Source of the DNA: Heterohyrax brucei
Lineage: Eukaryota; Chordata; Mammalia; Hyracoidea; Procaviidae
Assembly (NCBI GenBank): GCA_028571685.1
Contig: CM053148.1
Location: forward strand, 88,186,001-88,250,000
DNA: 64,000 bases
Reading direction: 5' to 3'
The notes below the pieces were generated by a model. That model ran no database searches and was not told where the DNA came from. It saw only the letters and a program-made list of their open reading frames with translations. A program made the position numbers and the translations under genes. Each line of letters starts with the position of its first letter. Within the stretch, counting starts at the first letter, position 1. Below are positions 11,963 through 55,306 of this stretch, in pieces.

Positions 11963-12004
11963 CCTCTCAACACTTTGTGTTCTTGACTTTGGGTTCCCTA
12001 TTAC

Positions 12005-12037
12005 GACAGCACTTGGCTGGCTTGGCTTGGCTTGGCC
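12005..12037 (+). mobile_element. 33-bp SINE/RTE-tail micro-insertion
   Basis: The insert reads GACAGCACTT followed by TGGC/TTGGC units. attac stands on both sides (12000-12004 and 12038-12042). In the L1 3' UTR consensus as I recall it, the flanking words are adjacent, which supports insertion. Confidence 0.7.
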
Positions 12038-12910
12038 ATTACTTGCTTTCCTGTCCCACTCCTTCTTTCTAGCCCTTGCTCCTGAGCTGGCACACTCCTT
12101 TAGTCTCACTTTTGTTTTATGGGCCTGTGTAGACCTTGGCTGGCAGGTGACTTCATCACTGAGCTAAAAAGGTGTCTGGAGGTTTGCTCCTGGAGCTTCT
12201 CCAGTCTCTGTCAGGCCAATAGGTCTGACCCTTTCTTATGAGTTACAATTTTGTTCTACATTTTCTCCAGCTCTGCCTAGGGATCTTCTATTTTGATTCT
12301 TGTCAGAGAAGTTGGTAATGGTAGCTGGGCACCATCTAGTTACACTCTACTACGTCTGGTGGAGGCTGTGGTAGTTATAGCCTATTAGTCTTTTGGACTA
12401 ATCTTCCCTTTTGTCTTTAGTTTTATTTACTGTTGCCCTGATGTGAGGAGACCAGTGGAGTATGTTAGACGACTGCTCACTGGCTTTCGAGACACCAGAC
12501 ACTACTTCCCAAAGTAGAACGTAGAACAGTTTTTTCATAAACTATGTTATGCCAAATAAACAAGATGTTCCCCAAGACCACCGTCCCCACAGCTCTCAAT
12601 CCAGCACTTTGGTTCTTCAGGGAGTTTGGTTGTGTCTACGGAGCTTGCACAATCTTGCCTTGTACAGTTAAGCTGGCTTTCCCAGTATCATGCACTGTCT
12701 CGCCCTTCACCAAAGTCACTGTCTGTATGTTGTCTATTTAGTGTTATTCCATCCCTACCTCTCTCCTCCCTTGTGGCCATCGAAGATTATTTCTTTTTGT
12801 GTGTAAACTTTTCATGAGCTTTCAAAATAGTGGTCTCATGCAATATTTATGAATTAATGAAAAAGCACAGCCTTTTGGAAATACTGAATGGAAAAAGAAG
12901 TTTCCTTCTG

Positions 12911-12971
12911 GCCCCTAGGGTCACCATGAGTCGGATCCGACTCGACGGCACTTGGCTTTGGCTTGGCTTGA
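12911..12971 (+). mobile_element. Short SINE/RTE 3' end with palindrome
   Basis: About 60 bp: 'cctagggtcaccat', the perfect 16-bp palindrome GAGTCGGATCCGACTC (12928-12943), 'gacggcacttggc' and a (TT)TGGC tail. CpG-rich for this window. No clear target-site duplication. Confidence 0.75.
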
Positions 12972-12974
12972 CAA

Positions 12975-14500
12975 ATACACTTCATAATTAAAAGGAAGCA
13001 TGGCATATCCAAGCATTCAACTAAAACAAAATATAAAAAAATGAATAACCGTCAATAACTTTGTCCTTGTTTTCCTATTAATCAGCTTGATTTGATGTGA
13101 ATCATTTTGAGTACATCATATTTTATTATAAATTGTCAAATTTCCATGATTATTAAAGAATTCCTAGAAGTCATTAAAACTCAACAGAGATTCCAGGGAA
13201 TAATAAATGAAAATACCAATATAGTGATGAAAATGTGTGATACGTACTTATTTTGTATTATTGCTGTAGACATTTATTATAATTTCATTCTACTCAATCC
13301 TTTGTGCTTATTAAACAAAATTATGTTAAAATTATGAAAAAATATCGTGTTCTCCATGTCCTAAATTGTCCATGGTAATTTTAGCCAGGCAAAGCCTATA
13401 AAAATTGCATGATATTATTTTACACCATAGGTGGATATAAAAAGACTAATTTTAATAACAAAATCTACCTAATATCAATTTAAATTGTATCTGAAAACAT
13501 ACATTTTGAGATTATTAAAAAAAACTATTCAGCACATAAAATAATAGAAATGTATTTTTCCAACCTTCTTTGTGTTAAAGTAACTGATAGACAATTACAA
13601 AATGATGATTAACATCAGCCTGAAGTAATTTTTGTATTATTAGATTTTATTTTCAAATGATCCATTTAAATGTTAAAGCTGACCAATTAATATATGCTTT
13701 CAAATCATGGCCAATCTACAGATAATGGGGACCGTGAGAATATTTCCATTGAGCTCATAGCTTCTGAGGTAATTTTATAACGAGGGGATATGGTATCACT
13801 GACTACATTCAACTCTGAATACTGTATAAACTGTAAATGAACAATCAGCATTTCACGACTGGTATCTACAAGATTTTGCAGAAGGTAGTGGATAACTTCA
13901 TTGTTCAAGATCAGCAGGTGTTCTCACAAATTACCTCAAGTGATATGCAGTAAAATATGCAAAGAAGTTTCACATTAATTATGAGTGGGATGTGAACTGT
14001 TCTTCCTGAAAAGTAATTTAAAGGTGATTTCACACATACATACATATATGCATATATATATATTTTAGCCTGGTATTTACAGTTACCATATAATCATTAT
14101 CTTGACTGATTAAAACCAATGTACAAAGGGTTTTTTTTTAAAGGCAAAGTGACATTTTAATATCTCAAGTCATCTAAGCATTCAGAGCTTGTATTTTAAT
14201 TTTAAACATGAAAAGTGATCTGTTTGCATCAGTGGTTGTTAGGGGCTATTCTATAGCTTTTGCTTTTTTGTGAAACCTAGAGCACTGTATACACTTTTAT
14301 TTACAGACTGCAGTATTAAAGTATGGAGAAATATTCACAAATGGCTTAATGCCTGTTATATGTGACTTTTGCATGATTTTAAAGAAATCTTGCAAAGTAT
14401 AATTCTGTTTAGAAGAGCATATTACATGTGAGGTGTCAAATATAAAGAAAATAAGAATTTGTAAAGTTACCTAAACTTTTTCATGAAAACAATATTTTGT
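12975..14500. other. AT-rich, SINE-free stretch
   Basis: 1.5 kb without recognisable repeats apart from a short CATA/TA run near 14035-14065. A 67-codon minus frame at 13705-13908 is the only frame of note; see findings. Confidence 0.45.
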
Positions 14501-14523
14501 GTATGTTTTTTAGTCTAGTTTCT

Positions 14524-14566
14524 GTAATGAGTCAGACCCGACTCAATGGCATTGGGCTGGGGGGGC
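14524..14566 (+). mobile_element. 43-bp SINE/RTE-tail micro-insertion
   Basis: Contains 'atgagtcagacccgactc', 'aatggcattgggctgg' and a G run. Flanked by perfect agtttct repeats (14517-14523, 14567-14573). Confidence 0.8.
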
Positions 14567-14626
14567 AGTTTCTTTTAAACTGTGTATTAGAGTTTCATTA
14601 ATTTTTATACTGCTTACTGACTTGTA

Positions 14627-14785
14627 GAAACCCTGGTAGTTTAGTGTTTAAGTGTGACAGCTGCTAACCAAAAGCTTTGCAGTTTGAATCCACCAGGTGT
14701 GCCTTGGAGACTCTATGGGGAAGTTTTATCTTGTTCTATAGAGCTGCTATGAGTTGTAATTAACTGAGTGACTGTTTTTTTTGTT
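14627..14785 (+). mobile_element. AfroSINE
   Basis: 'gaaaccctggtagtttagtg' to 'taattaactgagtgactg'. Full length, diverged. Confidence 0.9.
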
Positions 14786-15483
14786 AGTGTTGTTTGTTTA
14801 AGTTTATAGAATCTGTAATTCATTCAAGAATGGGCTTTGATATTCTGACAATAGTTTATTTTTATTTTTTAAAGTAAATTTAATCTATAATGTTCTAGTT
14901 TTTTGTTGTTTCAATCACTTTAAAAAACAACTATTATTAATCTATACTTACTGTATAATCATCTACTTTTAAGTATCATCTAATTTTAAGAAAAGAAGTT
15001 GTTTCTTGACATTGCCAACAACTTTTTAATGGATGCGGAATTTGGCATAGAACTTTTTTTATAATTTACATAATTTGTCATAAGGATGTATGTGTTTTTA
15101 ACTCTTGTGGTTGACTTGCTAAATTAAGGGGAAAAATAGCTTATTTTCTACTTTAAAATCAAACAAATGTATTTAACGCTGATTCAAACCGGTTCAGAGC
15201 TTTTGTCTCCAGCATAGACACTTCAACTATGATGGCTGAAGCAGAAAAATTCTGTTAATAACAAGTAAATTTGTTGAAAGATCCATAAATTCTTCAGTAC
15301 TCAGGATTTAGAAAGTCAAGTGTTCTATTTATTTCAGTAGAAAATTAAGGTAGTATAGAAAAAAATACCGTACGGATTATTTTTCCTTCAAATCCACACT
15401 TTGTAAGCATAATTAAAAATCTATACACTAAGCATGGTCTATTCATAATGTTTTTACTGGCTAATTCTTTTCAGAAGTGGACC

Positions 15484-15725
15484 ACTGAGTCTTTCTTCCT
15501 TTGGATGTGTTGTCAGTAGGGATCAATCCCTGGAAAAGGACATTATGCTGGATAAAGCAAAGTCAGCAAATAAAAAGAAGGCCCTCAACAAGACAGACTG
15601 ACACAGAGGCTGCAACAGGAGGCTTAAAGATAAAAATGACCTGGTGCAGGGCTGAGCAGTGTTTTATTCTGCTGCGCACAGGGTTGCTGTGGATCAGAAC
15701 TGACTTGATGGTATCTAACAACAAG
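15484..15725 (+). mobile_element. RTE-class LINE, 3' end
   Basis: Matches the final RTE codons and tail: 'ggatcaatccctggaaaagg', 'gccctcaac', 'gtggatcagaactgacttga', ending in 'tatctaacaaca'. The 83-aa plus frame at 15501-15752 is the decayed C-terminal region. Confidence 0.82.
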
Positions 15726-16313
15726 AAATTTGGCCTGATATACGTTCCATAGATCTGATTAGGTTTGATGTTGACAAATGGAAGGCTGGTCGACATGCTT
15801 TTGGCAAGAAATAAAATCACAAACATGAATCTTTTCAAATTACTTTTTAGTTTCTATTGTGTTATCTAAAAATTTCTCATCAAAATTTATCACTTTTGAA
15901 GATAAAACAATCAGTTAGAAAGATCTTCATGTAGGATTTCAAAGATGTTTTTCCAACTCTTTTTAGTATTCTAAATATTCTGTGTTAAAAATGAATTCTA
16001 ACAATAAATATTTCAATTGTGAATTGGCTACATTAAATGTATATTTTTGTGTGATTATATTCACACTGAGCAATGTGTTAGCTGTAGCTGAGACCAGTTA
16101 TTGTCAACCTGATATTAGAGAATGAACCATTTGTGTCTGTAGACATAGCAGGAGTCCTGATCTCTGTGCAATAAAAGCAAATTGAGAAGCTCTTAATGTC
16201 TCTAATTTCAAAAGTAAAGGATGATTAAAAAATTAGTCTTCTTGAAATCTATTGTAAGAGTTTCCAAGCCTAACATTATGAGAAGCCATAAAATTTTTTT
16301 TTTCCTTCCCCAG
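15726..16313. other. Unassigned stretch
   Basis: No repeat recognised. It ends in a branch-point-like cctaac (~16268) and a polypyrimidine tract leading to the candidate exon. Confidence 0.4.
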
Positions 16314-16422
16314 AATCAATTCTGTAGAAGTGAAGACACACAGAAAGAGAATACACTAAACAGTGAACTTGAAAGCAAAAGATAAGAAAACTCCAGGCTG
16401 ACCGAATTCTTTCACATTTTAG
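16314..16422 (+). other. Candidate internal exon (109 bp)
   Basis: Bounded on the left by a strong 3' splice-site pattern (T-run, 'ccttccccag', with cctaac ~40 bp upstream) and on the right by AG|GTAGGT. The segment is repeat-free. Frame 1 stays open for 23 codons and then hits TAA; frames 2 and 3 stop earlier. If spliced, it is more likely a non-coding or terminal coding exon. No product can be named. Splice-like motifs also occur by chance. Confidence 0.25.
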
Positions 16423-16554
16423 GTAGGTTGTTGACGTTCGTAGTAGATGTGTTGGTGGTAGACATGTGGGAATAAAGCAGAAGCCTCAGTGCTTTGCCCT
16501 TTTTCACAAACTGCACTGAGATAATCAATATCAGTTCATTAATCCCATCAGCAT

Positions 16555-16625
16555 AGCCAAGTGCTGTGGAGTTGGAGCCAACTCATAGTGAGACAGATTT
16601 TAGTACAACTGACGTTACAGGAAAA
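16555..16625 (-). mobile_element. AfroSINE/RTE 3' end, short copy (minus)
   Basis: 'gccaagtgctgtggagttgg' followed by 'agccaactcatagtgaga'. It keeps the hairpin arms GAGTTGG/CCAACTC and the CCAAG-type reversed tail. Confidence 0.65.
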
Positions 16626-16934
16626 TAGCTGAACAGTCCCATAGCCCTGTTGAGATAAGAAGCTAATGGAAACTGACAACTTGTCTGGGAAAGGATGGAC
16701 TGGAGGGTCTTTCCTGGGACACTTTTTCTCCAGGGTCCACGGTAGAAATCTTTTACAGCAGGGCTACTTGCTATCGAATAACCCTTCTGTTTAAGGCTGG
16801 CGTCAATAGTGGTTCTGCTCTGAGCTGTACTCTCTCATCTTTACAAGAACAAATGGAGAGAGATGAAAACTATGGGCTAAACTCAAGCATCTCCAATAGC
16901 ATATTTTGACATTTAAAACAAACAAATAAATAAA

Positions 16935-17072
16935 AATTCTGACCCAAAGAGACTGTGTAGGACAGGGTAGAATAGGCCCATAGCGTTTCCAAGGAGCACT
17001 TGGCAGATTTCAACTGCTGAATTCTTGGTTGTCAGCTATAGTACTTAAATACTATACATCAGTGTTTCTATT
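16935..17072 (-). mobile_element. AfroSINE (minus)
   Basis: 'gtaggacagggtagaata', 'gcgtttccaaggagcacttg' and 'atacatcagtgtttc'. Diverged. Confidence 0.85.
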
Positions 17073-17949
17073 ACAGTGAAAGGAACATCTGGAGGGCCAT
17101 AAAACCAGTCAATTATTTGCAGAGGTCAATGGCTCTAGAAGAGGAGAAAATGCAAAACAAATGCCACACAAAACAGGCTGACAGTGTGATAGATCTTTCT
17201 TTTTCTTTTTTTTAAATTTTAATAAAATTATCTTTCAAGTGATGGAGAATTTTTGAAACTCAAGATACTGAAAATTAGCACATAATATTCCTCAAGAGAA
17301 GTAAAGATTTGGCTTAAAAAATGATAATGTAGAAATAGACACACAATCATATAAATAATCTAAGTCCAGGAAGACATAAATGAAAAATGAAAAAATATTT
17401 CAAGTAATAAATGAAATATTTTTTCCAAAATTATAAAAAAAAAGACTGCAGAGTAGGTAGACAATGTCAAAGAGGAGAATTAGAGAAATCCCCCATTCAG
17501 ACACATTTTAGTGACATTTCAGCATAAAATATATTAAAAAATTCAGTTTCCAGAGCAATTGGTTACATGCAAAGAACCAGTTTCAAAATTTATAAAATAA
17601 TTTTTAGCAGCAACACTTTTTGTTACACTACAAGGCACTGATATTTTCAAATAAAGAAATGAGAAGAGCTTTACAAATATGGGACCTTATAAACTTAGTC
17701 GTACAATCAATGCACCTAAAACAGAAGACAGTCATAGGTTCACATGTGCTGTCTGGTTGAACTAAAAAGAAGAGAATTAAAACCAAACAATGTTGTTACT
17801 GAAAATAGAAAATTCAGGCAGAGATTGAAAGTTAAGAGAAGAATTTAAAAGTGTATGCCAAAATTTTTGAAAACCTTACAATAAGTAAAAAAAAAAAATA
17901 GAGAAATATAACAAAATCATCAAATAGCGCTGTAACTACTGCAAAAAAA
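17073..17949. other. Unassigned A-rich stretch
   Basis: A-rich on the plus strand. It could be an upstream part of the old L1 that follows, but I cannot align it. Confidence 0.35.
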
Positions 17950-18126
17950 ATTGTTAAAAATTCTTCTACAAAGAAACAGCCAGCCATAGATGAGGTCTCT
18001 GTTAAACTTTGTAATATATTCCAAGTAAACTTATCCCAATATGTCCAACTATTTTAGGGACAAAAAAACAACAAAAAAAAGAACCATGAAATACCATTGC
18101 TTGAGTTCTGGAAAACATTGACATCA

Positions 18127-18155
18127 CGCCAGCCAGCCAAGTGCTGTTGAGTCAG
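18127..18155 (-). mobile_element. 29-bp SINE/RTE-tail micro-insertion
   Basis: A reversed TGGC tail plus 'aagtgctgttgagtcag'. Flanked by a perfect 9-bp repeat ttgacatca (18118-18126 and 18156-18164). Confidence 0.85.
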
Positions 18156-18362
18156 TTGACATCATAAGCACATAAAATCATTTTTTAAAAAAGTTTATTT
18201 ATACAGATGTTGAAATTCTAAACATAATATGATCAAAGATAAGTCTAATCACATAAAAAATAAAGTACAACTTTACCAAGTAAGATTGCATAAATTATAC
18301 AAGGGAAGATTTATCTATTTAATATAATCTGTAAATGAAATTCACAGGTTATGAATAAGAGT

Positions 18363-18519
18363 CAAAACTTATTGCCATTGTGTTAGTTCTGACTCATGGT
18401 GACCCTACAGGACAGAGTGGAACCGGTCCCCAGGCTTTCCAAAGAGGAGCTGGTGGATTTGAACTGCCTATCACTAGGTTAGCAACTGAGGTCTTCAATA
18501 CTGTGCCACCAGGGCCCTG
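18363..18519 (-). mobile_element. AfroSINE (minus)
   Basis: 'tagttctgactcatggtgac', 'caggctttccaaagaggagc' and final 'gccaccagggccct'. Confidence 0.92.
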
Positions 18520-19316
18520 AATAAACATATAGGCATTAAATTATATGACACAAAAGTATTTATATGTTGACTAGATAGATCAAAATTCAAAAGTAGCATC
18601 ACTCATTCTTGGTTAAGACTCCTAGAAAATTAAGAATAGAAAGAAAAATAAAAAGGCATATTTTTTCAGAGTGTAATTTTAAATGGAATGTTTTTTAGAA
18701 AACACCAAATTAAGAGGAATTCATTTCATATCAGAAAAGAGAGAATGATTCCACTAGCTTAATTCAGTTTTATAGTACATCAAGAGTCTTGATACTTGTA
18801 TTAAAAGAAAGAGAAATGAGTGGAATCAAGATGGCGGACTAAGCACATATCTCCCTAAATACTTCTGGAAACAAAGACTTGAATTCATAATCAAATGGAG
18901 TCTTCTGGTCACCTAGTGAGCCCCAGGACACGGCACAGAGCTGTTAATTTGGACTTCATACCACTGAACAAAAAACCTCCTCTCTTTCACTGACTCCCGC
19001 TGTTGGGTAGTCCTGGCTCTCATGGACTGAAGATGGCCTAGAGAAACATCAGTGATTCATCCTCACAGTATCTTTTCTAGACTTTATTGACTCACATGAA
19101 ACCCCAAAAGCAACAAATCTTGTATAAAATGTAGAAAAGAAATCACACATGGCTTCAGAAGGCACCAAAATGAAACAACCAAGGCGCTTTCTGAAGGAAG
19201 AAACTTTTCTGAAATTATCATAAGGTGAATACAAAAGGATTCTATAGAGAGCCCTCCTAGACCTTATATAAAATGCAGCAGAGTGAAATGAAAAATTAAG
19301 CAAGCTGTTCAATCTG

Positions 19317-20052
19317 ATGAAACACCAGTACTCTGAAATCCAACAGATCAAGAACAAAATCAAAGACATAGAAACTTCAATTCAAAGCCAAGAAAACAGA
19401 ATGGAACAAAAGGAAAAGAGACTTTCTGACTTGGAAGACAGAACTACTGACTCCAGGATCTATGAGGAGAAACCAGAAAAAAGAAACAAGAAAAATGAAG
19501 AACTATTATCAAGCATGTGGGACTCTACTAAGAGGAACAACTTATGATTAATTGGAGTCCATGAACAGGGCAAAACACCTGAAAACACAGAGAGTATTGT
19601 TGCTGAGCTCCTGAGAGAAAACTTCCCAGAAATCATGAAGGAAGGGAACATAGATATCCAAGATGCATATTGAATGCTACTCAGTATAGATTTCAAAAGA
19701 AAGACCCCAAGACATATTATAATCAAGCTTAACAAAAAAGAAACCCAAGCAGAAACTCTTAAAGACAGCAAGACTCAAAGCAAAGCTAACATTCAGAGGG
19801 AAACCCCATAGGCTTCCATTGGATTTTTCAGCAGAAACGATACTGGCACAGAGACAGTAGCATGACACATTCAAAGCCTTGAAGGGGAAGAACTTCCAAC
19901 CAAGAATTATATATCCTGTTAAACTCTCTTTCAAATATGAAAATGAAATTAAGACTTTCACAGAGAAACAGAAACCCACAGACTTTGCAAAAATCAAACC
20001 AAAGCTACAAGAAATACTGAAAGAATCTCTTGGCTTTGGCTTAGAAGAATAA
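19317..20052 (+). pseudogene. L1 ORF1 remnant
   Basis: L1 ORF1 is an RNA-binding trimeric chaperone. The first frame (19317-19547) is a lysine/glutamate-rich coiled coil with the DLEDR motif. It ends at a stop near 19545. The next part reads on with an RNA-recognition-like segment (LRENFPEI, PRHIIIKL) and a C-terminal region ending in LKESLGFGLEE and a stop at ~20050. At least three in-frame stops separate the pieces. Domain order matches L1 ORF1; the family is known, decay is seen. Confidence 0.8.
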
Positions 20053-20164
20053 AACCACTAACTTCATATTTTAGAAGGACATGTTACCCAGAAACCTACT
20101 CAGTTAGGGAAGGCTCCAAACTTAATCCAAGCTTTAATACTGAAAGAAATCATCCAGTGATTAT

Positions 20165-21828
20165 CATGAAAACTATGGTGCCGTCATATTAAAAACAGGG
20201 ATGTACTACAGTCGTTATAGTCCTTCCAGATGGAGAGGAAGTCAATAAGACTGGTAGTAACTAAAATTGGGTTTATACATAGTTTTTTAAGGGGGAACAT
20301 AGGGACAGTCATAAAGCACAACAAAGATGCAACATACCTTATCAAGAAATGTAACTCATTTCTTGTGGTCTCAACAACCACAAAACCAACTCTGCTAAAA
20401 ACTCTCAGCAAAATAGGCATAGACAGAAAATTCCTCAATGCAGTAAGGGTCATTTATACAAAGCCAACTGCTTACATCATCCTGAATAGAGAGAGACTGA
20501 AACAGTTTCCCTTGAGAACAGGAACTAGACACGGTGCCCACTCTCACCTCTCCTATTCTACATTGTATTAGAAGTTCTAGCCAGAGCAAGTAGAAAAGAT
20601 CAAGAAATAAAGGGCATCTGCATAGGCAAAGAAGAAGTAAAGATCTCCCTACTTGCAGTTGATATGATTGTATATGCAGAGAATCCTAAAGAATCCATAA
20701 GTAAACTACTCAAACTGATAGAAGAGTTCAGCAGTCTCAGGATACAAGATGAACATAAGTAAATCAGTAGGATTCCTTTATGCAAACAATGAGACTGTTA
20801 ATGAAGGAATCATCAAGCCAGCCAAGTGCCGTCGAGTTAGATCCAACTCAAAGCAATACCATTTACTATAGCCCCAGGAAGATAAAGTACCTAGGAATAA
20901 ATCTAACTGGAGAAATAACAGATGCTTACAAAGAGAACTATAAGCCATTATTACAAGAAACTAAGAGAGATTTACATAAATGGAGAAACCTATCCTGCTT
21001 GTGGATAGGAAGTCTTAATATTATGAAAATGTCTATTTTACCCAAAGCAATCTACTTACATAATGCAATCCAAATACAAATTCCTGTGTCATTTCTTAAT
21101 GAGATGGAGAAACAAATCACCAATTTTGTTTGGAAAGGGAAGAAGCCCCAGATAAGTAAAGCACTACTAAAGAACAATACACTGGGAGGCTTCTCATTAC
21201 CTGACCTTAGAACCTATTACACTGCCACAGAAGTTAAAACAGCCTGGTACTGCTACAAAAACAGACAGATAGATCAATGGAACAGAATCGAGCCTCCAGA
21301 GATGACACCATCTGCCTATGAGCAGTTGATATTCGACAAAGGCCCTAAGACATTAAACTGGGGTAAAAACAATCTCTTCAACAAATGATGCTGGCAAAAT
21401 CGGATATCCATCTGCAATCAACTGAAACAAGACCTATGTCTTATATCTTATACAAAAACCAACTCAAACTGGATAAAAGACCTAAATATCAAATCAAAAA
21501 TGATAAAGCTCATCCAAGAGAAAGTAAGAACAACAAAACCAAGCCAGTAAGGGCCGAGGTAAAACTTACCCCCAGAGTATTCAATGGAAGTTTTAATACA
21601 CAACATACATGGACTTCAAAATCTGTCAAATCACAAGCAGAAGACGAAATACATAAATGGGAACTAGTAAGAATCAAACACTTTTGCTCATCCAAAGACT
21701 TTATTAATAGAATTAAAAGGCCACCTACAGAACGGGAAAAAATATTCTGCAACTGTATGTCAGGCATAGTGGGGAAGGAGATACAGGCAGCCAAAAAAAA
21801 CACATGTGGACATGCTCACGATCTTTAG
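20165..21828 (+). pseudogene. L1 ORF2 remnant (reverse transcriptase, 3' part)
   Basis: ORF2 normally carries an endonuclease and a reverse transcriptase. Here the endonuclease part is absent and the frame starts inside the transcriptase (LLKTLSKIGIDRKFLNAV at ~20390). The active-site block that is FADD in working L1s reads LAVD at 20652-20663, so one catalytic aspartate is lost. A micro-insertion at 20817-20847 shifts the frame. The longest surviving frame (20780-21388) covers the region after the transcriptase, with YLGINL, FVWKGKKP and WYCYKNRQIDQWNRIE. A further frame runs to 21828. Confidence 0.85.
20817..20847 (-). mobile_element. 31-bp SINE/RTE-tail micro-insertion in L1 ORF2
   Basis: Reversed tail 'gccagccaagtgccgtcgag' then 'ttagatccaac'. 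Flanked by tcaa (20813-20816, 20848-20851). It splits a block that in L1s reads as one run through the I-P-F-T-I-A-P region, so insertion is clear even though the repeats are short. Confidence 0.8.
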
Positions 21829-27523: not shown

Positions 27524-27566
27524 TCCAGCCAGCCAGCCAAGTGCCGTCGAGTCAGATCTGACTCAT
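27524..27566 (-). mobile_element. 43-bp SINE/RTE-tail micro-insertion with palindrome
   Basis: Reversed (CCAG)n/CCAAG tail, 'tgccgtc' and the perfect palindrome GAGTCAGATCTGACTC (27549-27564). Target-site duplication not clear. Confidence 0.75.
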
Positions 27567-27654
27567 GAGAATTCTGTCCAGCTTTCCACAACTGCTACCA
27601 CATCACCTGGGCTCTAGCATAACAACTGTGAATTATGCAAACACTGTCTAAAGA

Positions 27655-38514: not shown

Positions 38515-38538
38515 GCCAAGCCAAGTGTCGTTGAGTTG
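38515..38538 (-). mobile_element. 24-bp SINE/RTE-tail micro-insertion
   Basis: GCCAAGCCAAGTGTCG then TTGAGTTG. Flanked by perfect 11-bp repeats gaacccccatt (38504-38514, 38539-38549). The shortest case. Confidence 0.88.
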
Positions 38539-43066: not shown

Positions 43067-43105
43067 TTGCTTTATATTGGATTTAGCAACACCTTCCACA
43101 GAAGT

Positions 43106-44102: not shown

Positions 44103-44147
44103 AAGAGTCAGAATTTACTTAAAGGCAATGGGTTTGGTTTTGGTTTT
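44103..44147 (+). mobile_element. AfroSINE tail only
   Basis: 'agagtcagaatttacttaaa' then 'ggcaatgggtttggttttgg'. About 45 bp, strongly 5'-truncated, with the ordinary tail type. Confidence 0.75.
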
Positions 44148-44498
44148 GTCTCTTGCAAAATTTTAGTGTTTTAAACATCCTTGATGAATAGATGCACTGT
44201 TTAAATTTGCATGACTGACATCACTAAGTCCTCTTACTACTTGTGTATTTTAAAATAGCTGTATTATTTTAAGCATACATTCATATTTATCTACAGATAT
44301 GGTTTGTCATACAGATTTATGTGTGCATATTTTAAATGAATTTTATGAAATAGATATGTATACTGTGTACAACACTTATGTATTCTATATCAAAAGTCGG
44401 CAAGCTGTAGTCCAGGAGCTAAATTCAACTAACTACCTAATTTTTAAAAATAAAGTCAGTAATGGAAAACAATATATCTGGCATAGTTGATAGGCCTT

Positions 44499-44944
44499 GT
44501 AGATACACTAAGGCTTGTAGGACACTCCAGATCATTCTTGCTTTATGTATAGCCACGAGGTCTAAGGCAATACAACCTTCTGGTTATATATGCAAAAATA
44601 ATCTCTATAGGTAATCTTTTGGAATTAAGACCCCAGTATTGCATACCGTTTCTTGTGAGTCCTTAATCACTTAATGACGTGCTCCCACAGTTTTCTTATA
44701 CAAACTCACACCCCACCAAAAAAAAAAGAAAAAAAAGATAAACATAGGTAAGTTTGTTAAAGGAATTTCCAATGCAACCACAAAACCAAGACTACTCACA
44801 AGAAACGGTATGCAATACTGGGGTCTTAATTCCAAAAGATTACCTATAGAGATTAAGTATATTTTTGCATATATAACCAGATCTTGTGGCTATACATAAA
44901 GCAAGAATGATCTGGAGTGTCCTACAAGCCTTAGTATATCTACA
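44499..44944. repeat. Large imperfect inverted repeat (hairpin)
   Basis: The left arm 44499-44660 is matched in reverse by the right arm 44794-44944, with a 133-bp spacer. Long exact blocks include 'aaggcttgtaggacactcca', 'gatcattcttgctttatgta' and 'cagtattgcataccgtttct'. The left arm has about 20 extra bases near 44555-44580, and the right arm has a small extra 'tata'-like piece. The arms match no repeat elsewhere in the window. Confidence 0.9.
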
Positions 44945-46490
44945 GACTGATCAGTACTATGATTTACTTGGCATTTCTACACTTTTCAGTCTTTAGGAAA
45001 TGTTTAGAGATGTCTCCAGAGAAACAGTTTGACTGAAATCAGTGATATGCATGTATCCATAACCTTATTGCTATCATAAGTCTAAACATAACTTCAGGGA
45101 CCTCAGCTGGGATTAATATTTTATTCCAAATTTGATACAGCTTCTCCAACAGTCTTTGTGACATCTCACTGAGTTACTTTGCTGAATCAGCCTGGCCAAG
45201 ATCTTTCTGGATCAACTGTTGTGTAACATTGTCAACCAGCAACTACAAACAGGTCATAGTGGCTTCTCTTCGTAGCTATAGCAGATGGGATATTTCTGTG
45301 CAACAGATGTGAAAAAGCTCACATGGTACTAGAGCAATATCCAAATGAAGATCAGTTAGGGTTCCAAGAGCACTTAGTGTCATCAGTTAACAAGAAGGTT
45401 GGTTAAGACTAAGTCCTAAAGAGGCTAAGACTTATTTTTTCACAAATTTGTCACGTCTACACCATGAGTCTATTTGACTTAGTGTTACCTGTTCAAACGT
45501 TCTTCGAATTTTATGTTTCATTGCTGTAGTGGATGAGCATACACCACATCAACAGCTTCTGCATGTCTCACTTAGTGACATACCCAGCATTCTTTTAGTT
45601 GTGCAGCCATCATCTAGCTTCTTTTCTGAGTAGTTTCTCCCCTGTAACAGAGGTTCACTTCCCTCTAAGGTTCTCACTTAATCTTTCAAGTTGCTAGTTA
45701 TCAACCTGATCCCACAAGATAGTTCTTAAAAGAGCATAATGCTAAAGGTAGTAGGTTTTTCTGTTTTTATTTTTAGTAAAGTTAAACTACAGTTTGGTTT
45801 TAGGAGACTTCAGGGGATATTTTTGGTTTAAGGTGTAAAGATTACCTCAGGTCAACAGTTACAAGGGTTCAGCCAACCTTCATGGCTCTAGGAACTCTGG
45901 GGCTCTTGGCAATTTGAGGTGAGGTTCTGTGTTTTCCTCCTTTTGACCAAAGTTCTTCTAGAGAATCTTTGATTAGAATCCTCAGGTATCATTAGCAGTA
46001 CACGGGCACAAGCCAGTACTTTTGGTCTCTTGGAAAAATAGGCAATTATTCATGGAGACAATTGACCACATATTCCATGTCCTTCCTGTATCCCAGAGTC
46101 TTCTCATTCTTCTGTTGCTGCTGGTGAATAAAGACCAATTGTTGTGGGTTGGTTTTACAGAGCAGATGTTTGGAAGAAAACAGGAAATTGGAATGTGTTA
46201 CTGAATAATGATAGTCTGCAAAATAAATATGCAAGTTGTTAAAGGTCTTGCAAATAGTTTCAAAGCCCTACAAGTCTTAAATATGAATTGGTGACTATTG
46301 ATTGAAAAGTGTACCTTTAAAATATGAAAAAGTATATGGTCCCTTTACAGAAACACTTCATGACTTCAAAATAATGAATGGATAAAATTAAACAAACAAA
46401 ACAGATTATCGCACAGGTTTGTTGTTCCAACAGAATTAGGCACGGCTGTGCTAAAGTAAAAGTCCCTGAATCATGAAAATGGTTTGCTTT
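44945..46490. other. Unassigned stretch
   Basis: 1.5 kb without recognised repeats or long frames. Confidence 0.45.
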
Positions 46491-46494
46491 CTGC

Positions 46495-46680
46495 TACTAA
46501 CCAAAAATGATGGGCAGTTTGAATCCACTGAGCAGTACTTCCTAAGAAAAGGGCTGGCATCAAGGCAGGAGGATGATCTGTTTCCATAAATAGAACCAGG
46601 AAAAAACCTTGGGCCTTTATTCTACTCTGCAACATGTAAGATCATCCTGAGTCTCCATGGGTTTTTGTATTTAGCTTGGT
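46495..46680 (+). mobile_element. AfroSINE, long variant
   Basis: 'cagtttgaatccactgagca', 'aagaaaagggctggcatcaa' and tail 'gtttttgtatttagcttgg'. Confidence 0.7.
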
Positions 46681-46727
46681 GTTGAAGGACAGGATGCTTG
46701 TGAATAGGAAGAGTCCATAGTTTACTG

Positions 46728-46905
46728 GAAACTTTGGTAGTATAGTGGTTAAGAGATACAGCTCCCAAGCCAAAGGTCAGCAGCTGAAATCCACGAGGAG
46801 CTCCATGAAAATTCTATGTGGCAATCTACTCTGTCCTATAGGATTGCTTTGAGTAGAAATGAATTAGACTGCATGACAGCATATTTTGTTTTGTTTTGTT
46901 TTGTT
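46728..46905 (+). mobile_element. AfroSINE
   Basis: 'ggaaactttggtagtatagt' to a (GTTTT)n tail. Confidence 0.92.
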
Positions 46906-46954
46906 TTTGTTGTTCATTGTATTCTAACCAGAGCCTACGTTCTCTACAAACCAG

Positions 46955-47100
46955 GTTCAGTTGCTACTAATCTATTCTAATTCATTGAGATTCCGTGTAT
47001 ATAAGTAGAACTGTGTTCAATAGAGTTTTCAGGTTATTTTTGTTGTTTGTTATGTTTTGCTGTCTTCTCACCAAAGACTTCCCCAGATGCTTGCTAACCT
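46955..47100 (-). mobile_element. Possible diverged AfroSINE (minus)
   Basis: 'agttgctactaatctattct' and 'aagtagaactgtgttcaata' follow the minus SINE order weakly. Confidence 0.35.
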
Positions 47101-47849
47101 CCTCAGGTCCCTACAAGGAATATAATCTTTCCATTATCTTATGTCCCACTACACTGAACCAAGAAAGCTGGTTCCTAGCCAACACTGAAGATACACGTCC
47201 ATGTTAGATGGTTTGACATCTCATGCACAACTGATGTCCATAGTGGAAGATAAGAACACATCTAAGTGTTGTCTAGAGAACCTAGACAGGGTAATGAGTG
47301 TCCATACTTGCACCTATTCCTGCCTAATTGGCATTCACGTGAAGCATAAAACTTCTAGAGTTCCCAAGTAGGGGGAAATGAAACAAATATACTTTCTCCT
47401 TCCATACACCTTGATAATGATTTTGTGTGTTTAGGAAAATTAACTGTTAGATTGGCAGGATGAGATCTAGTTTAGAATGTCTTTATGAAGTAAATGATTT
47501 CATACTTCATGGGAGGATTGGATTAACTATGGGGAAAACTTGCTAGTTAGTCCCCATTTCAAGTTTAATATGGGGGTAATAAGCACATAACCACAAAATG
47601 TAGGATAAAATTAACATTTAGTTAGTGGTCAGATAATATGGACTAGAGCCAGAGAGTATTTAAGCATGAGTGGAATGTGAATGGCCACACAAAGAGTCTG
47701 AAAAAACAGTCTAATCTCAAGATTAAATTTTTTAATGACATTTTCTGTTTAGGAGTCTATTAATTGACCTTTTTTTTTTTAAATAAAGGAGGATGGAAAT
47801 AGACTGAAAATTGATAAAAATTAAAATTAATAAGAGTTTAACAATCATA
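47101..47849. other. Unassigned stretch
   Basis: No recognised element. Confidence 0.4.
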
Positions 47850-48180
47850 GCAGTCATGAATAGAACTTTCACTAAGCCCCCAACATTGTTTCTTGTACTT
47901 GTATAGGTTGTGTCTTGTAATTCTCATAAAGATCTTAGCATTCTACCTTAGTGCCATTGCATTGGCTCAGACACGTGACAACCTTATCCATGTCACAACA
48001 AAATGCTGGCCTGTGACAGTTTCATCATCTTTGGTATGCTATGGTATTTCATACCATAAACATCTTATGAGAGCATCATTATAAACATTTTATATAAGAA
48101 AACAAATTCTGCAAGAGCCCAATTAAATAGTTTAAATTCAAGTAAATTTATGAGTGAGAGGGCTGGGATTTAAATCACTG
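47850..48180 (+). mobile_element. Probable MIR-type SINE
   Basis: 'cttgtaattctcataaagat' and, at the end, 'gagggctgggatttaaatca' fit MIR order, with an unmatched part between. Confidence 0.5.
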
Positions 48181-50080
48181 ACCTGTACATCTAAAATGTT
48201 GATTGTTCTGGTACACAAATTGAATGTCTGAATGTGCCAGACACCTTGCTATGTCCTGGGAAACATGTGTGTGACCCCGTTCTTTACGTAATCCCACACA
48301 GTAGAGGAAGATTTCAAGGACAAGAATCTTGTCACTTAAATCTTCAAGGATGAGTAAAACTTTAGTTGGCATCAGTGTAACTGTGAGAAGATACAGATGG
48401 TAAAAAGAAGAAAACAGGTACTTGAAAGGCAAATCAAGAACACGTGATAGGAGATAAGATGCAGTATTATAAAACATTACGAAGTATAAATGCTGTCGGC
48501 AGGAGCTAGGTTTGCAAGTTGCTGCAACAATAACTGATGAGAGGTGAAGGTATTACCGGGAAGACCCTATCACAGGAACCAAAGGTCAAGGGCTCCGAAC
48601 TGGCTGACAGCACGGGAGAGGCTATTATATTTAGTAAATGAATGACGGTTGGTTACCTATGAGGAGTGGGATTGCAGTCAGAGTGACATTTGGAAGTGAG
48701 TGAGTGATAATATGATACGAAAGGAGGAGGAAAGACAGAATCACTAAACTATATCAAATTTTAAATAATCATTTTTCAAAACTTTTAAATAAATTACATT
48801 ATGACCCTCAGAGATTTCCAACCAAATAGGAGTGAAAAGTCTGAATTTTCTTTAACACTACTTCCAATATCTGAGTTTTGAATGTCACCTTACACTGTTT
48901 AATCTTTATGTTCGTTTGACCATGTATTTTATACTATCCACTGATTCTTGAGATTAAATATTTTCTTTTAATTCTAATATAATGTTACATATATAATGTT
49001 TAACTAAAATGTTACACACTGGATTTTTCCATCTCCTCTCAGGTGTCCCTGTTTTGTTACTAAAGCTGAGGATAAAAGATGTACTGAGAAACTGAGCTTA
49101 CAGAATCCAAGATTGGAAGGAACATTAGTGTCCATGTATCCATTTGCTTAGTTTTCTCTCTTACATTCCCATCAAGGTATGGGGAGCTGAAATCATCTTA
49201 AAGAAAATCTTAAAGAAATTTACTGGGCAAGGCTCACTTAAGAAAAATACTGTGCCAGTAAGGTCATGAGAACTGACTGCTTAGCAATATCCCAAGAAAA
49301 AATAACAAGATGTGGCTGTCCTTGGGTAAGGCCATTATTAGATCAGAGGTTTTGAGAACTAGGGAACACGGATGCGTGAGAAAGACCAGAATTAAGAATA
49401 AACAAAGAAGTGTGAACTGTGTAAAAGTCTGCTTGAAAAAGAAATAAATATCTCAGCTTGACTGGGTCCCTCCTGATGTGAGCATCTTTCTTTAAGCTCC
49501 CACACCCTCCCTTCAGTCCTGTTCACCTGTAGACAGATGGCTGGCTCCAGTCACCGAGGTATGCTCCAGCTGTTTTATATTACATGAAGCATGGAATTAG
49601 AATCTAAGTAGGTAAAACAATGTTATATTTAACGATTAGTTACAGAGAAATGTAATACTAAATGAATAAATATCCCATCCTACGACCCTGCAAAATGAAG
49701 ATGAAGTGAAGAAGATGATTCCATCTTATTTACTTACTGCTAGATGTTCTACTGTAGACATTTATCAATGGATCAAGTGCAGACTCAAGCTTTAACTGGT
49801 TCCTAAGTGGAGGAGCTAATCCCAATGGGCAACATTACTGACTGTTCCCTGAACATTGGTCTAGACTATGAGTACATGGAAGTGAATACAGTCACTGGTT
49901 GATGATTAAGGCCACAAACCTGATCTCCTGATATGAAGGACCTGGTAAACAAGAAAGTGTAGAAGGAAGGGATGAGGGGATTTCGGTAAGCAACATAAAC
50001 AGTAAATTTTGTAAAGATTATTTTACGAGCTTTTTCTGAATAGATACATGACTTAATTTTACTCAGCCTACAAAACAGTT
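48181..50080. other. Unassigned stretch
   Basis: 1.9 kb with no AfroSINE. Around 49085-49150 'gattggaaggaacattagtg' is typical of an ancient interspersed repeat. No gene seen. Confidence 0.45.
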
Positions 50081-50082
50081 TT

Positions 50083-50243
50083 GGAAATCCCTTGATGTAA
50101 TGCTTAAGAGCTACAGCTTCTAACCAAAAGGTTGGCAGTTCAAATCTAGTTGGAAATCCTATGGAACCCTTCTACCTTGTCCTATGGGGTCACTATGAGT
50201 CTGAACAGATTCAATGGTAGTAAGTTTGGGTTTGGGGTTTTGC
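50083..50243 (+). mobile_element. AfroSINE
   Basis: 'ggaaatcccttgatgtaatg' to 'ggtagtaagtttgggtttgg'. A (TG)n tract follows its tail. Confidence 0.92.
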
Positions 50244-50248
50244 ATTCT

Positions 50249-50249
<1 letters not shown>

Positions 50250-50287
<38 letters not shown>
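50250..50287. repeat. (TG)n microsatellite
   Basis: About 19 TG units directly after the SINE tail. Overlapping frames are artefacts. Confidence 0.95.
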
Positions 50288-50290
<3 letters not shown>

Positions 50291-50502
50291 TGTCACCTTA
50301 AAGAATGGGTTGGGCTCTGTATCTATTCTCTGTTTAAATTCTAACTGGGTGTGGAGAAAAAAAATCAACAAATTATTTTAGAAATTTATTCAGTCAATGC
50401 ATTTTCTCTCCTCTCAGTCCTGAAAAATATCAATAAACAGGTAGCAAACATAGCTGGGACCTTTTCCTTTTCCTTTTTGTTTCCAACAGTCTTCACCCCA
50501 AA

Positions 50503-50688
50503 TAAAAATCAAACCAACCAACCAAACAAAAAAACACAGTGCTTTTCAGTTGATTCTCACTTATAGTGACCCTATAGGACAGCATAGAACTGCTCCATAG
50601 AGTTTCAAAGTAGCATCGGGAGGATTCGAACTGTCAAGCTTTTGGTTGGCAGATGTAGAACTTAACCACTATGCCACCAGGATGTCCT
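50503..50688 (-). mobile_element. AfroSINE (minus)
   Basis: Starts with (CCAA)n-rich tail 'aaccaaccaaccaaac', then 'atagtgaccctataggacag' and 'gccaccaggatgtcc'. Confidence 0.94.
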
Positions 50689-51108
50689 CACCGCAAATAG
50701 GCTTATTCATATATGGACTTATTGCTTCAGATAATTACCAAATACATTGCTATGTATAGAACATTCAGAATACTCAAGTCTCCAGATGTACTCCGGAGTA
50801 TTTGTATTGGTGCTTGGGAGCTCTTCATTCAGTGAACTGGCATCTACATCAGTTAATATACACCTGGTTGTTACCGATGCTTAGACTTCAATTTGATTGA
50901 ATTATTTCACTAGTCTCTACTTCGCACAGAGGGATCCAAGAAACTCTGAAAGTATGTGTTTTTAAGGGAAAACTCCTGTAGTGACAGGTAAATTTGGTCT
51001 GATTGGGTGGATATGGGACACAAAAGAAACGGAAGAGAAAGAAAACGACTTAACACGTTTCTTCAGATAAACAGACCACTGTTCAGACTTCATTTACAGC
51101 TGAGGAGC
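50689..51108. other. Unassigned stretch
   Basis: No recognised element. Confidence 0.4.
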
Positions 51109-51624
51109 TGTTGGGAGCCATGGCCCACATACCTCCTGTAAGCCTTAGATCTCGCTGCCTGCAAAACAGCGTGGTGCTGAGGGCCACACCCTTGTTTACC
51201 CGCTTGATGGCCTGCCCTGTGTAAGGCTTTGCCTGGAGACTAGGCAAGCCCCCCTGTGATTGGATATTGTTTGCCCTATCAGAAGCCCGCCCAGTGTAAG
51301 GCTTTGCCTGGAGACTAGGCAAGCCCCCCTGTGATTGGATATTGTTTGCCCTATCAGAAGCCCGCCCAGTGTAAGGCTTTGCCTGGAGACTAGGCAAGCC
51401 CCCCTGTGATTGGATATTGTTTGCCCAATCAGAATACAACAGGCAACACTATTTAAGCCGGGTGACCAGGAAATAAAGCGGAAGAAGGATCTTGAAATCG
51501 TGTGTGGTGGTCCGTGTGTCTGTTCTCTACCTGCTGGACGGGTGGGGTCTCGGACAAGGAGCGTAGCTCCAAACATGGAAGCAGAGAGTACAGCACCGCC
51601 ACGGTAAAGACAAGTACCCCAACA
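51109..51624 (+). mobile_element. Solo ERV LTR, 516 bp, with U3 tandem repeats
   Basis: Starts TGTTGGGA and ends CCCCAACA (inverted-repeat ends). The U3 holds three 75-bp units (51219-51443). Then come a CCAAT box ('gcccaatcag'), a TATA-like 'ctatttaag', the poly-A signal 'aataaag' at ~51472 and a CpG-containing R/U5-like region. Promoter, poly-A and ends are in the right order for a plus-strand retroviral LTR. The high CpG content and perfect repeats suggest it is younger than the other LTRs here. Flanks do not give a clean duplication. No viral genes are adjacent. Confidence 0.85.
51219..51443 (+). repeat. 75-bp tandem repeat x3 in LTR U3
   Basis: Units start at 51219, 51294 and 51369 with 'gtgtaaggctttgcctgg'. 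Units 1 and 2 are identical over 75 bp. Unit 3 matches for the first ~57 bp, then has CCCAATCAG where the others have CCCTATCAG, and diverges. Each unit contains gattgg (an inverted CCAAT box). Looks like a duplicated enhancer block. Minus-strand frames of 118 and 159 aa here are translations of the repeat. Confidence 0.97.
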
Positions 51625-52055
51625 CAGATAGCTTAGAGAAACAATCATGGATGTAGTATTAAAAACATAAACCACATGGGAGACAGTTGTGGATACCTCT
51701 TAGACACAACAAAGATCTCATGGATTTGTCTATTAATTTGAAGATTTAGGATCATAGCCTTATGGGGCAACTAGGTGAATTTTCACAATATAAAGACAAT
51801 GTTTTATATCCTAGTTTGGTAAGCAGTGGCTGGGGGTGTTTTAAAAAGCTTTTAAGCATGTCAGTAGCCACCTAAGATACCATTATTGGTCTGTACACAC
51901 CTGGAAGAAGAGAGAAAGAAAGAATTCTAGAATAATAAATAAGCCTATGAAACCAATAGTCTACTTGAACGATGGCATATGCCCACATCAAGATGGGAGA
52001 AGCTATATGGCACTAGGCTACTATTATCAGCCATTCCCACCCAGGGCTTAGCAGG
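51625..52055. other. Unassigned stretch
   Basis: No recognised element. Confidence 0.4.
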
Positions 52056-52560
52056 TGCCATGGATTGAACTGTGTCTCCCCCCAAATGTGTGTAGCCGTG
52101 GAGCTGGGCCATGATTCCCAATATTTTATGATTGTCTTCCATTTTGTGATTTTCCTATGCTAGGATGGTAAATCTCTTAATAGGATCACCTCTCTGTTCC
52201 ACTGTAAAGGGAGTTTCCCTGAACCATGGCTTGCACCACCCTTTATCTTTTATCCTCCAAGAGATAAAAGGAAAGGGAAGCAAGCAGAGAACTGGGAATT
52301 TCACACCATCAAGAAAGCAGTACTGAGAGAAGAGCACATCCTTTACACCTGAAGTTCCTGCTCCAAGATGCTGCCTGACCAAAGACAGATGCAGTACAAG
52401 GACTTTCCTCCAGAGCCGACAAGGCAGAAAGCCTTCCCTGAGGCAGACATTCTGAACATGGTGTTGTAGCCTACCGGACTGTGTTAAGAACAAACTTTCC
52501 TTTGTTAAAGTCATCCACTTTGTGGTATTTCTGTTAGAGCAGCACTAGCTGACCAAAGCA
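52056..52560 (+). mobile_element. MaLR/ERVL-like solo LTR
   Basis: 505 bp from TG ('tgccatggattgaactgtgt') to CA ('gctgaccaaagca'). Best copy of the family also seen at 4123, 27655, 32205, 33003, 61624 and 63205. 5-bp flanks gcagg/gtagt match only partly. The minus frames at 51945-52514 are not genes. Confidence 0.75.
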
Positions 52561-53871
52561 GTAGTAGGTGAATCCAGGTAGACTGGGAGGAAAACGTAGA
52601 ACAAAGCTCAAATTCGTGAAAGCTGGCCAGACTTGTAAGACCAGTAGAGACTAAATGAATTCCCAAGACTATGTCTTTAAGCTTAGAAGTCAAACTACCC
52701 CCAGAGGTCACTTTACACTCAAATGACAAATGAGTCCTTAAAATAAATCTCAGATATGAATACAGCCTTTCTCAATATAATCATCTAAATTAAACCAAAG
52801 AGTAAACAGTTACCCTAGATCAAGTATGAGAAGGGAAGGGGTGAAAAAGAAGTTAGAGTAATAGAAACAGAAGAACCCAAACGGAAATAATGACGATGCT
52901 GCTGTACTGTGAAAAATCTGTCCAACACTACTAAGCAATATATAAATTGTTAAGAATCTAATTTCTTGTGTAAATTTCCACCAAAAATGCAATTTAAGAA
53001 AGAAAAAAAAAACAAACAAACAAGAAAGACTTTCACCAAAAAGAGTATGTGGGCACATGAAACAAGAACAAAAATAAAATATAAATATAAAACTTTACCT
53101 GCAATTATTTTCTTTTTGGAACACTGGCCTGACAACAAGCACTGCCAGTGATGGAAAATTTCAGAGTATTCTAACTATCAGGTTATGGATGCCCCATTCT
53201 GATGCCAGGAAAATCGTAGATGAGCTGAACAGGGAGAAGGTGGAATCACCATCTGTGCTCAGTGGTGCTGTTTCTGTTCCTATTCATCCATGCAGAAGAG
53301 CTAGTATCTTCTGTGTTTGCCACACTATGCTGAAAATGCTGCATGCTTAGGGAAAACAAAAATTAAAAAGTGACCTTCGGTATTATTTTTACTTGTGAAG
53401 TATCTGACCTGTGATAGGCAGCCTCTGTGAATACCTCAGAGGTCCCACCTCCTGGTTGTTATACTTTTGTGTAATTGCCTCCCATTGACTGTAAGATAAT
53501 CTGTTAGATTCTCTACTATGATGAATTCCTTTACAAACTTTAAGCACTTCAAATATCAACAGTAAACATCACCAGAAATAAAAGTACTGTAATATGGGTT
53601 TGATCTCTTCATTTAATTCCAAGTTTTCTAAGAATTAAAAGGTGTGTGAATTTTCTCTCAGTGGCAACCTAACGGCTTTGACCAAAGCTCCTGTTAATTA
53701 AAGTAAACACTGCTAATCAAAAGAAGAAAAACAAAAACAAAGACAAAAAGCATCAAACTGAAACCAAAACAGAGCCAAAAAGGAAGCAAGGATTTGCAGA
53801 GCCAAGGTCTAAAGTGTTACAATGCTACTATTCCTGCAGACAGAAAAGGCACCTAACTAAGTAGTGAGAAG
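52561..53871. other. Unassigned stretch
   Basis: No AfroSINE. 53410-53515 ('gtgataggcagcctctgtga', 'ttgtgtaattgcctccc') resembles an ancient MaLR-type LTR piece, not certain. Confidence 0.4.
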
Positions 53872-54200
53872 TAAAGATGTCACCTTGAAGATTAAGGTGC
53901 ACCTGAGCCAATTCGTGGCATTTTCAACAGCCTCAAGTACATGTGAAAGCTGGACAATGAAAAAGGAAGACCAAAGGAGAACTGAAGCCTTTGAATGGTG
54001 ATGTTGGCAAAGAATATTGGATATATCACAGACTGTCAAAGGAACACACGAATCTGTTTTGGAAGAAAAACCAGAATGCTTCTTAAAAGCCAGGATGGAG
54101 AGACTTTGTTTCATATGCTTTGGACGTGTTATCAGGAGGGATCAGTACCTGAAGAAGGACATTATGCTTAGCAGATAGACAGTGAAAAAAGAAGAAAAAG
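53872..54200 (+). mobile_element. RTE-class LINE, coding fragment
   Basis: 'aagatgtcaccttgaagatt', 'tgtgaaagctggacaatgaa', 'ggaagaccaaagg' and 'atcaggagggatcagtacct' give the RTE C-terminal coding order. Broken frames; 3' tail missing. Confidence 0.85.
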
Positions 54201-54527
54201 CATAACGCCAGTTAATGGGTATATATCATAGTGCAATGTATGTATACGTATATAGTGGTTATACCAAAGAAATGTGAGATATTTTCTTTTGCTTCATAGC
54301 CTGAACAACTCTTGTTATTAATAATCTTCTTCATTTTTTGCTGATACAGTAGTGTTTACATCTAGTAACTAATTCTGTTGTGAATTTGTAATATATTTGA
54401 ATCCATTTTATTAACATCTTTTTAGAAATGTGTAATAAGAGTTACATCTATCATTAAATAAGGTCATGAGTTTTCTCATTAATGTGTAGATATATTCTAT
54501 ATATATTCTGTACTCAAGTCTTTGTCA
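54201..54527. other. Unassigned AT-rich stretch
   Basis: Nothing recognised. Confidence 0.4.
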
Positions 54528-54690
54528 AGTGTTGTTGTTACATGTCCTTGAGTTGGATCTGGCTTGGAACAACTCTACAGGACAGAGTCCAACTTATTCA
54601 TGGGATTCCAAGAAGCAACTGGTGGATTTGAACTCCCAGCCTTTTGGTTAGCAGCTGAGCTCAGGACCCCTGTGGCACCAGGGCTCCATG
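54528..54690 (-). mobile_element. AfroSINE (minus)
   Basis: (GTT)n start, 'ctacaggacagagtccaact' and 'ggcaccagggctcc'. Confidence 0.9.
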
Positions 54691-55256
54691 TTGGATACAT
54701 CTATGGTAAATATTTTTCCAGTTCTGCCATTTACCGTTTCATTTCATCACCTTTAATATAGCCTTCTGATGGAAACCTATGCTTATTTTAAAGACATTCA
54801 CTTTGCACATACTTTCTTTTAGGGTATTTTATCTTGTCTAGAAAAAAAAAATCCTGTTGTCAAGATGATGCCCTCTCATGTTTTTTTTCAACTGAGTAGA
54901 ATCTTTCGTCCTTTTTATTTATTTATTTATTTGGTTTGGTTTAAGTTTCCATGTTCAAAGTCCATGATGCCTTTCTGATTCATGTCTGGGTTAGATTCAA
55001 AGTAGAGAATATAGCTTATTTCCTTATATTTTTGTGTAAGGGTCTACTTGGTACAGCACTGTTTATGTGAAATAAGTCACTTGGCCATGGAATCGCTGTA
55101 GAATCTAGTCTAGATTATTAATTGGACCTTGATCAGTTGTTAACAATTAGGTTTATTTCTTGATACATTCAATTCTTTTTATCAACTTTTTAATCAGTGC
55201 ATAATACCACAGTGTTTTAATTGTTGTTTATATTTTAAAGCTATGCTATTAGTTTC
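54691..55256. other. Unassigned stretch
   Basis: T-rich; nothing recognised. Confidence 0.4.
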
Positions 55257-55267
55257 AAACTAATTTA

Positions 55268-55295
55268 GCCAAGCCAAGCCAAGTGCCGTCAAGTG
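55268..55295 (-). mobile_element. 28-bp SINE/RTE-tail micro-insertion
   Basis: Three CCAAG-type units then 'tgccgtcaagtg'. Flanked by perfect 11-bp repeats aaactaattta (55257-55267, 55296-55306). Confidence 0.88.
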
Positions 55296-55306
55296 AAACT
55301 AATTTA

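Follow-up and report, generated by a model that had tools for sequence, protein, structure and literature searches.

Very short 3′-end insertions of a TTGGC-tailed SINE subfamily in the hyrax Heterohyrax brucei

Strong 5′ truncation is normal for long interspersed elements (LINEs). The lizard Anolis holds many CR1 insertions of less than 50 bp, potentially missed by an earlier BLAST search, and 62% of its RTE1 insertions are complete (PMC5389967). Here we describe very short insertions of a short interspersed element (SINE) in Heterohyrax brucei, starting from a stretch of 64,000 nucleotides (assembly GCA_028571685.1, contig CM053148.1, positions 88,186,001 to 88,250,000 of the forward strand; hereafter the window). 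A preliminary description, made from the letters alone, had noted there a class of 24–43 bp pieces of an RTE/AfroSINE-like 3′ end, several of them between direct repeats, and its interpretation is supported overall. The pieces end in CACTTGGC(TTGGC)n, and the SINE body is of the kind known as AfroSINE.

AfroSINE and its partner LINE, RTE1, resemble the copies described here in the SINE body, in the 3′ hairpin shared with the LINE and in an RTE-type target signature. The copies here differ in ending in CACTTGGC(TTGGC)n rather than in CAGTGGGTTT or (AAC)n, and nearly all sampled ones are micro-truncated. The Repbase names AFRO_LA, PSINE1, SINE2-1_Pca and RTE1 are tabulated in PMC3747384. The likeness to Anolis CR1 lies in numerous tiny 3′-end insertions overlooked by similarity searches; CR1 is a lizard LINE from a different clade (PMC5389967), whereas the element here is a mammalian SINE about 155 nt long. 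Tailless retropseudogenes are likewise short truncated retrocopies with target-site duplications, but they are 3′-truncated, tailless and L1-dependent (PMC5322556), whereas the copies here retain their tail and 3′ end and bear an RTE signature. Within the literature searched, mostly without subscription papers, we recognised no earlier description of a SINE subfamily existing almost wholly as micro-copies.

Direct repeats and empty sites

The 13-base core of the 3′ end, GACGGCACTTGGC, has 53,713 exact matches (26,862 + 26,851) in the 3.49-Gb assembly; the same pattern read backwards has 7 (4 + 3). The large population supposed in the preliminary description is borne out by these counts, and pieces this short may escape routine repeat annotation. 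The sample consisted of the first 100 listed core matches, at C1:0.2–13.0 Mb, less one duplicate (L067, with core and 20-base flanks identical to those of L066), giving n=99; L005 and L010, related loci with the same insert, were both retained. The micro-inserts shared by L005/L010 and by L066/L067 indicate that some copies were multiplied together with their surroundings after insertion. Selection by an exact core at one end of contig C1 biases the ages of the sample towards young copies, and other contigs are represented by the window alone. That the remaining 53,613 matches resemble the sample is an extrapolation from the 99.

The micro-copies are true insertions, as both direct repeats and uninterrupted paralogous pre-insertion sites are found. 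With mismatched flank pairs as the null, direct repeats of score at least 6 flank 31 of the 99 copies (4.1 expected), 45 copies have repeats of score at least 5 (11.6 expected) and 19 of score at least 9 (0.13 expected). The repeats reach 14 bp. The target-site duplications that the preliminary description had reported hold against random pairing of flanks.

For the empty-site comparison the flanks of each copy were joined without the insert and one repeat and matched to paralogs among the fetched loci and the window, excluding paralogs that carry the insert. The 97 queries were made up of 91 copies of the sample (the n=91 set) and six window inserts; paralogous empty sites were available for 35 of them. 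The commonest paralog state was clean in the repeat-flanked class (score at least 5, plus two window inserts), with 18 of the 23 testable inserts uninterrupted, in agreement with the insertions claimed beforehand. The class without repeats gave a clean empty site in 1 of 12 cases. Its paralogs had 1–8 extra bases in 6/12, which is what the loss of a few target bases on insertion would produce, and were 1–7 bases shorter than the joined query in 5/12, probably from short repeats or tail left in by the cut.

Older AfroSINEs are abundant in the window (36 longer copies were aligned, not all of them complete, and gave the SINE consensus used below), and they could in principle supply chance matches or decayed remnants of full-length SINEs. 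The core count of 53,713 against 7 for the backward pattern and the repeats that directly abut the short pieces leave such an origin a negligible probability, and the testable empty sites, which are mostly uninterrupted, rule it out.

Tail, SINE identity and copy length

The CACTTGGC(TTGGC)n tail of the micro-copies does not match the older AfroSINE tail, CAGTGGGTTT(GGTTT)n, and marks a separate variant subfamily. Its units vary among the sample loci from TGGC to TTTTTTGGC, the T run being unstable and GGC being kept. The preliminary description had called the 3′ end RTE/AfroSINE-like. Each of the 22 copies that extend at least 30 nt past the core aligns better to the SINE than to the LINE, 20 of them with the young SINE consensus and 2 with the older one.

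The 3′ end is shared with LINE 3′ ends in the fetched DNA, the common pattern being ATAGGGTCGC.ATGAGTCGGA..CGACTCGA.GGCA. This LINE, which carries the shared 3′ hairpin and an (AAC)n tail, is presumably RTE-type. A loose pattern found 21 LINE-type 3′ ends, of which about 18, judged by eye, show LINE sequence for at least 40 nt upstream; a seed from the reverse-transcriptase region lies 250–1500 nt upstream in 5 of the 19 that have enough DNA. The pieces could instead be 5′-truncated LINE copies, such truncation being ordinary for LINEs. The last ~28 nt before the core are common to SINE and LINE, and pieces shorter than this are thus not assignable to either. The copies long enough to tell run into SINE-specific sequence in 22 of 22 cases, and the LINE 3′ ends in the same DNA carry (AAC)n and not TTGGC; we consider a LINE origin improbable. 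An all-against-all comparison of the upstream DNA (1.5 to 3.6 kb, first 71 copies), in which a shared stretch had to exceed 100 bp and end no more than 60 nt from either core, revealed no long LINE parent; it returned the duplicated pair L005 and L010 and two full-length SINEs (L024 and L033). A 17-base pattern gave two matches in viral contigs, and the one examined (L001) has no family sequence beyond the pattern.

Element length including the tail has a median of 36 bp, with 78 of the 99 copies below 50 bp and 90 below 75 bp. The class of 24–43 bp set out in the preliminary description is not a natural one: copies of every size between about 17 bp and full length occur in the range observed, and window pieces of 70, 52 and 17 bp fall outside its limits. 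Full-length SINEs number 3 of 99 (L024, L033 and L096). Extension past the core is 0–10 nt in 37 copies, 11–16 nt in 10, 17–23 nt in 20, 24–34 nt in 12, 35–60 nt in 11, 61–110 nt in 6 and more than 110 nt, the full SINE, in 3. Survival against length declines smoothly, with a mean extension of 21.7 nt and a loss of about 4.6% per nucleotide (non-full copies of the earlier n=91 set).

Full length was reached by 2 of 77 TTGGC-tailed copies and by 9 of 13 copies with the older tail (window and L003–L070; Fisher p 5e-8). Selecting the loci of this comparison by the new tail should leave the older-tail counts unbiased. An ordinary SINE family has most of its copies at full length, and the TTGGC-tailed copies do not. 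Micro-truncation seems to be characteristic of the TTGGC-tailed lineage. At non-CpG positions the copies differ from the consensus by 4.2% across the final 16 nt and by 7.0% across the final 40 nt; both figures are underestimates because the copies were chosen by an intact core. We think that the TTGGC-tailed family is probably younger than the older AfroSINEs; current activity is not required.

Target-site signature and mechanism

Target sites of elephant RTE1_LA and AfroSINE were reportedly the subject of work by Gilbert in 2008 (as cited in PMC13295347 and PMC3747384). At the 31 repeat-flanked sites of our sample (score at least 6), positions −13 to −9 relative to the repeat start are rich in T (86/155; these sites have a T frequency of 0.326 at −25 to −16; p 3.7e-9), with a peak at −10 (23 of 31 sites). 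A stretch of T about ten nt upstream of the duplication is a mark of RTE-clade LINEs and their SINEs, and the Tn-TA signature of Bov-B and the Sauria SINE has its T run at this distance from the first base of the duplication (PMC13295347). The matching position points to RTE-clade machinery. The same paper refers to work on an elephant RTE in which the pattern was similar, and gives A as the first base of the repeat for Bov-B; the repeat start here tends to T (17/31), not A, which would fit a tail unit beginning with T.

Junction microhomology of at least 2 nt is present in 13 of 24 strict cases, against a fraction of 0.126 expected by simulation (p 1.3e-6; the null was drawn from the n=91 set and applied to the n=99 set). 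Together the direct repeats, blunt joins, small deletions and microhomology suggest that a short first-strand cDNA was joined by microhomology at variably staggered second nicks. Endonuclease-free repair of double-strand breaks, copying short pieces of SINE RNA or DNA, would also leave junction microhomology, many copies without a direct repeat, and the lost target bases seen in 6 of the 12 repeat-less copies with an empty-site paralog. The T run at a fixed distance from the repeat start by its position already disfavours repair, most copies have tail units after the core, and the direct repeats extend to 14 bp; repair is in our judgement very improbable.

We think it probable that RTE-clade LINE machinery retrotransposes the TTGGC-tailed AfroSINE subfamily by target-primed reverse transcription, which mostly stops early and ends in microhomology joining. 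The template would be RNA of the AfroSINE-related subfamily ending in GACGGCACTTGGC(TTGGC)n. An endonuclease, which from the target signature would be that of an RTE, would nick about one helical turn downstream of the T run, and reverse transcription would begin in the TTGGC tail. Most events would stop early, usually within about 20 nt past the core and with a roughly constant stopping chance of about 4–5% per nucleotide, and little beyond the tail and the 3′ hairpin would usually be copied. The end of this short cDNA would then join the other side of the target through 1–4 nt of microhomology, leaving behind a direct repeat, a blunt junction or a small deletion in the target.

The shortening is attributed here to early stopping of the enzyme, but it may instead lie in the template. 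Cleaved or degraded 3′ fragments of SINE transcripts could be captured by their hairpin and tail, and an ordinary RTE enzyme would then copy each fragment in full; this would account for a LINE-capable enzyme leaving such short SINE copies. Breakpoints pile up at 19–20 nt (12/99, starting at about CATGAG or CCATGAG), just outside the stem of the simplest predicted 3′ hairpin, and at 8–10 nt (14/99), mostly in its loop; tailless retropseudogenes are reported to be truncated at single-stranded positions (PMC5322556). A longer predicted fold has position 19–20 paired, and the other breakpoints are spread across the hairpin including its stems, with a survival curve that is near geometric. The excess at 19–20 nt is only suggestive of a structural cause, and short templates seem to us unlikely, more so than early stopping by the enzyme.

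Several observations weigh against early stopping by RTE machinery. An RTE that always stopped at ~22 nt would be unable to copy its own several-kilobase RNA, and a further twist is needed. None of the 99 copies was recognised as a LINE with a TTGGC tail. Direct repeats of score at least 6 are lacking in 68 of the 99, and the breakpoints are not perfectly smooth, as the 12 copies at 19–20 nt show. The junction is not clean in 5 of the 23 repeat-flanked cases (L015, L025, L059, L063 and L083): L015 and L025 have long repeats (9 and 14 bp), yet their paralogs hold 2 extra bases, and the repeat taken at L063, TTGGC, is tail only.

A more far-reaching proposal, which we put forward tentatively and hold to be possible rather than probable, is that the SINE lineage and its LINE machinery have shifted to near-obligatory abortive retrotransposition, with tens of thousands of events of 20–50 bp each. 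Initiation would be efficient and elongation would fail: the RTE reverse transcriptase might be crippled, the host might block elongation, or short 3′ SINE RNAs might be in use.

The copies in the window

The window was scanned by an anchored search for the CACTTGGC-type 3′ end, keeping scores of at least 11 and dropping three matches of score 9. Eleven copies were found, whereas 40 sequences from first-order resampling gave 0.025 on average and the reversed sequence gave no copy. All 11 fall short of full length, and none exceeds 70 bp. Exact cores number 4 in the 64 kb, where about 1 is expected from the genome-wide count (about four times the average density). Copies with a changed core make up 7 of the 11, as against 1 in 256 kb of fetched C1 DNA; given this disagreement the number of changed-core copies is poorly known.

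The six pieces named in the preliminary description are present with their direct repeats letter for letter. The 33-bp insert at 12005..12037 (+) has a long (TTGGC)n tail, the repeat ATTAC and TTT about 10 nt upstream of the repeat; a single paralog was available and is clean. The 43-bp insert at 14524..14566 (+) has a perfect 7-bp repeat, AGTTTCT, a T run upstream and the variant tail GGCATTGGGCTGGGGGGGC. This insert, with its third kind of tail, was counted apart from the 11. Four inserts lie on the minus strand: 29 bp at 18127..18155 (repeat TTGACATCA on the plus strand), 31 bp at 20817..20847 (4-bp repeat TCAA), 24 bp at 38515..38538 (repeat GAACCCCCATT) and 27–28 bp at 55268..55295 (exact core, repeat AAACTAATTTA, T run upstream).

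The further copies without clear direct repeats are also present, all five of them: a 70-bp 3′ piece of the TTGGC-tailed SINE at 3808..3877 (+), a 52-bp 3′ piece at 12916..12967 (+) with an exact core and the tail TTTGGCTTGGC, a 36-bp 3′ piece at 16556..16591 (−) with a changed core, a 40-bp 3′ piece at 27528..27567 (−) with an exact core, and a 17-bp piece at 63547..63563 (+) with a one-change core and one tail unit. A sixth had been overlooked, a 22-bp micro-copy at 1521..1542 (−) with a one-change core and the tail TTTGGC, also without a clear direct repeat.

A permissive search gave direct repeats of score at least 9 in 3 of the 12 window copies (0.06 expected) and of score at least 5 in 5 of 12, near the 3.2 expected by chance. 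Within the window alone the long repeats are convincing, while the short ones (5 bp at 12005, 4 bp at 20817) prove nothing by themselves; at 20817 the permissive search favoured a different 4-bp match over TCAA. This last piece is judged an insertion because it sits within L1 ORF2 sequence whose paralogous stretches are uninterrupted in 6 of 6 cases, and not on account of its 4-bp repeat. The L1 setting is seen in a nearby 67-residue piece that matches the human L1 ORF2 protein of solved structures (E 8e-15).

Two other features were observed in the window. Within the open frame at 51083–51448 one unit (RANNIQSQGGLPSLQAKPYTG) is repeated in tandem about three times, forming a small minisatellite. 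The open frame at 58771–59193 (−), judged by eye, resembles a decayed mariner-type transposase.

If one SINE lineage leaves mostly copies of 20–50 bp, counts of retrotransposition that rest on repeat annotation may greatly underestimate the number of events in that genome, and many of the small insertions and short duplications at present taken as random indels would have a retrotransposon origin. Should retrotransposition indeed have become abortive, insertional mutations and target duplications would go uncounted in surveys based on repeat length. The set of copies is a natural record that shows, almost to the nucleotide, the points at which an RTE-type reverse transcriptase stops and the way in which short cDNAs are joined. 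With such a record the determinants of SINE and LINE truncation become testable by sequence alone.

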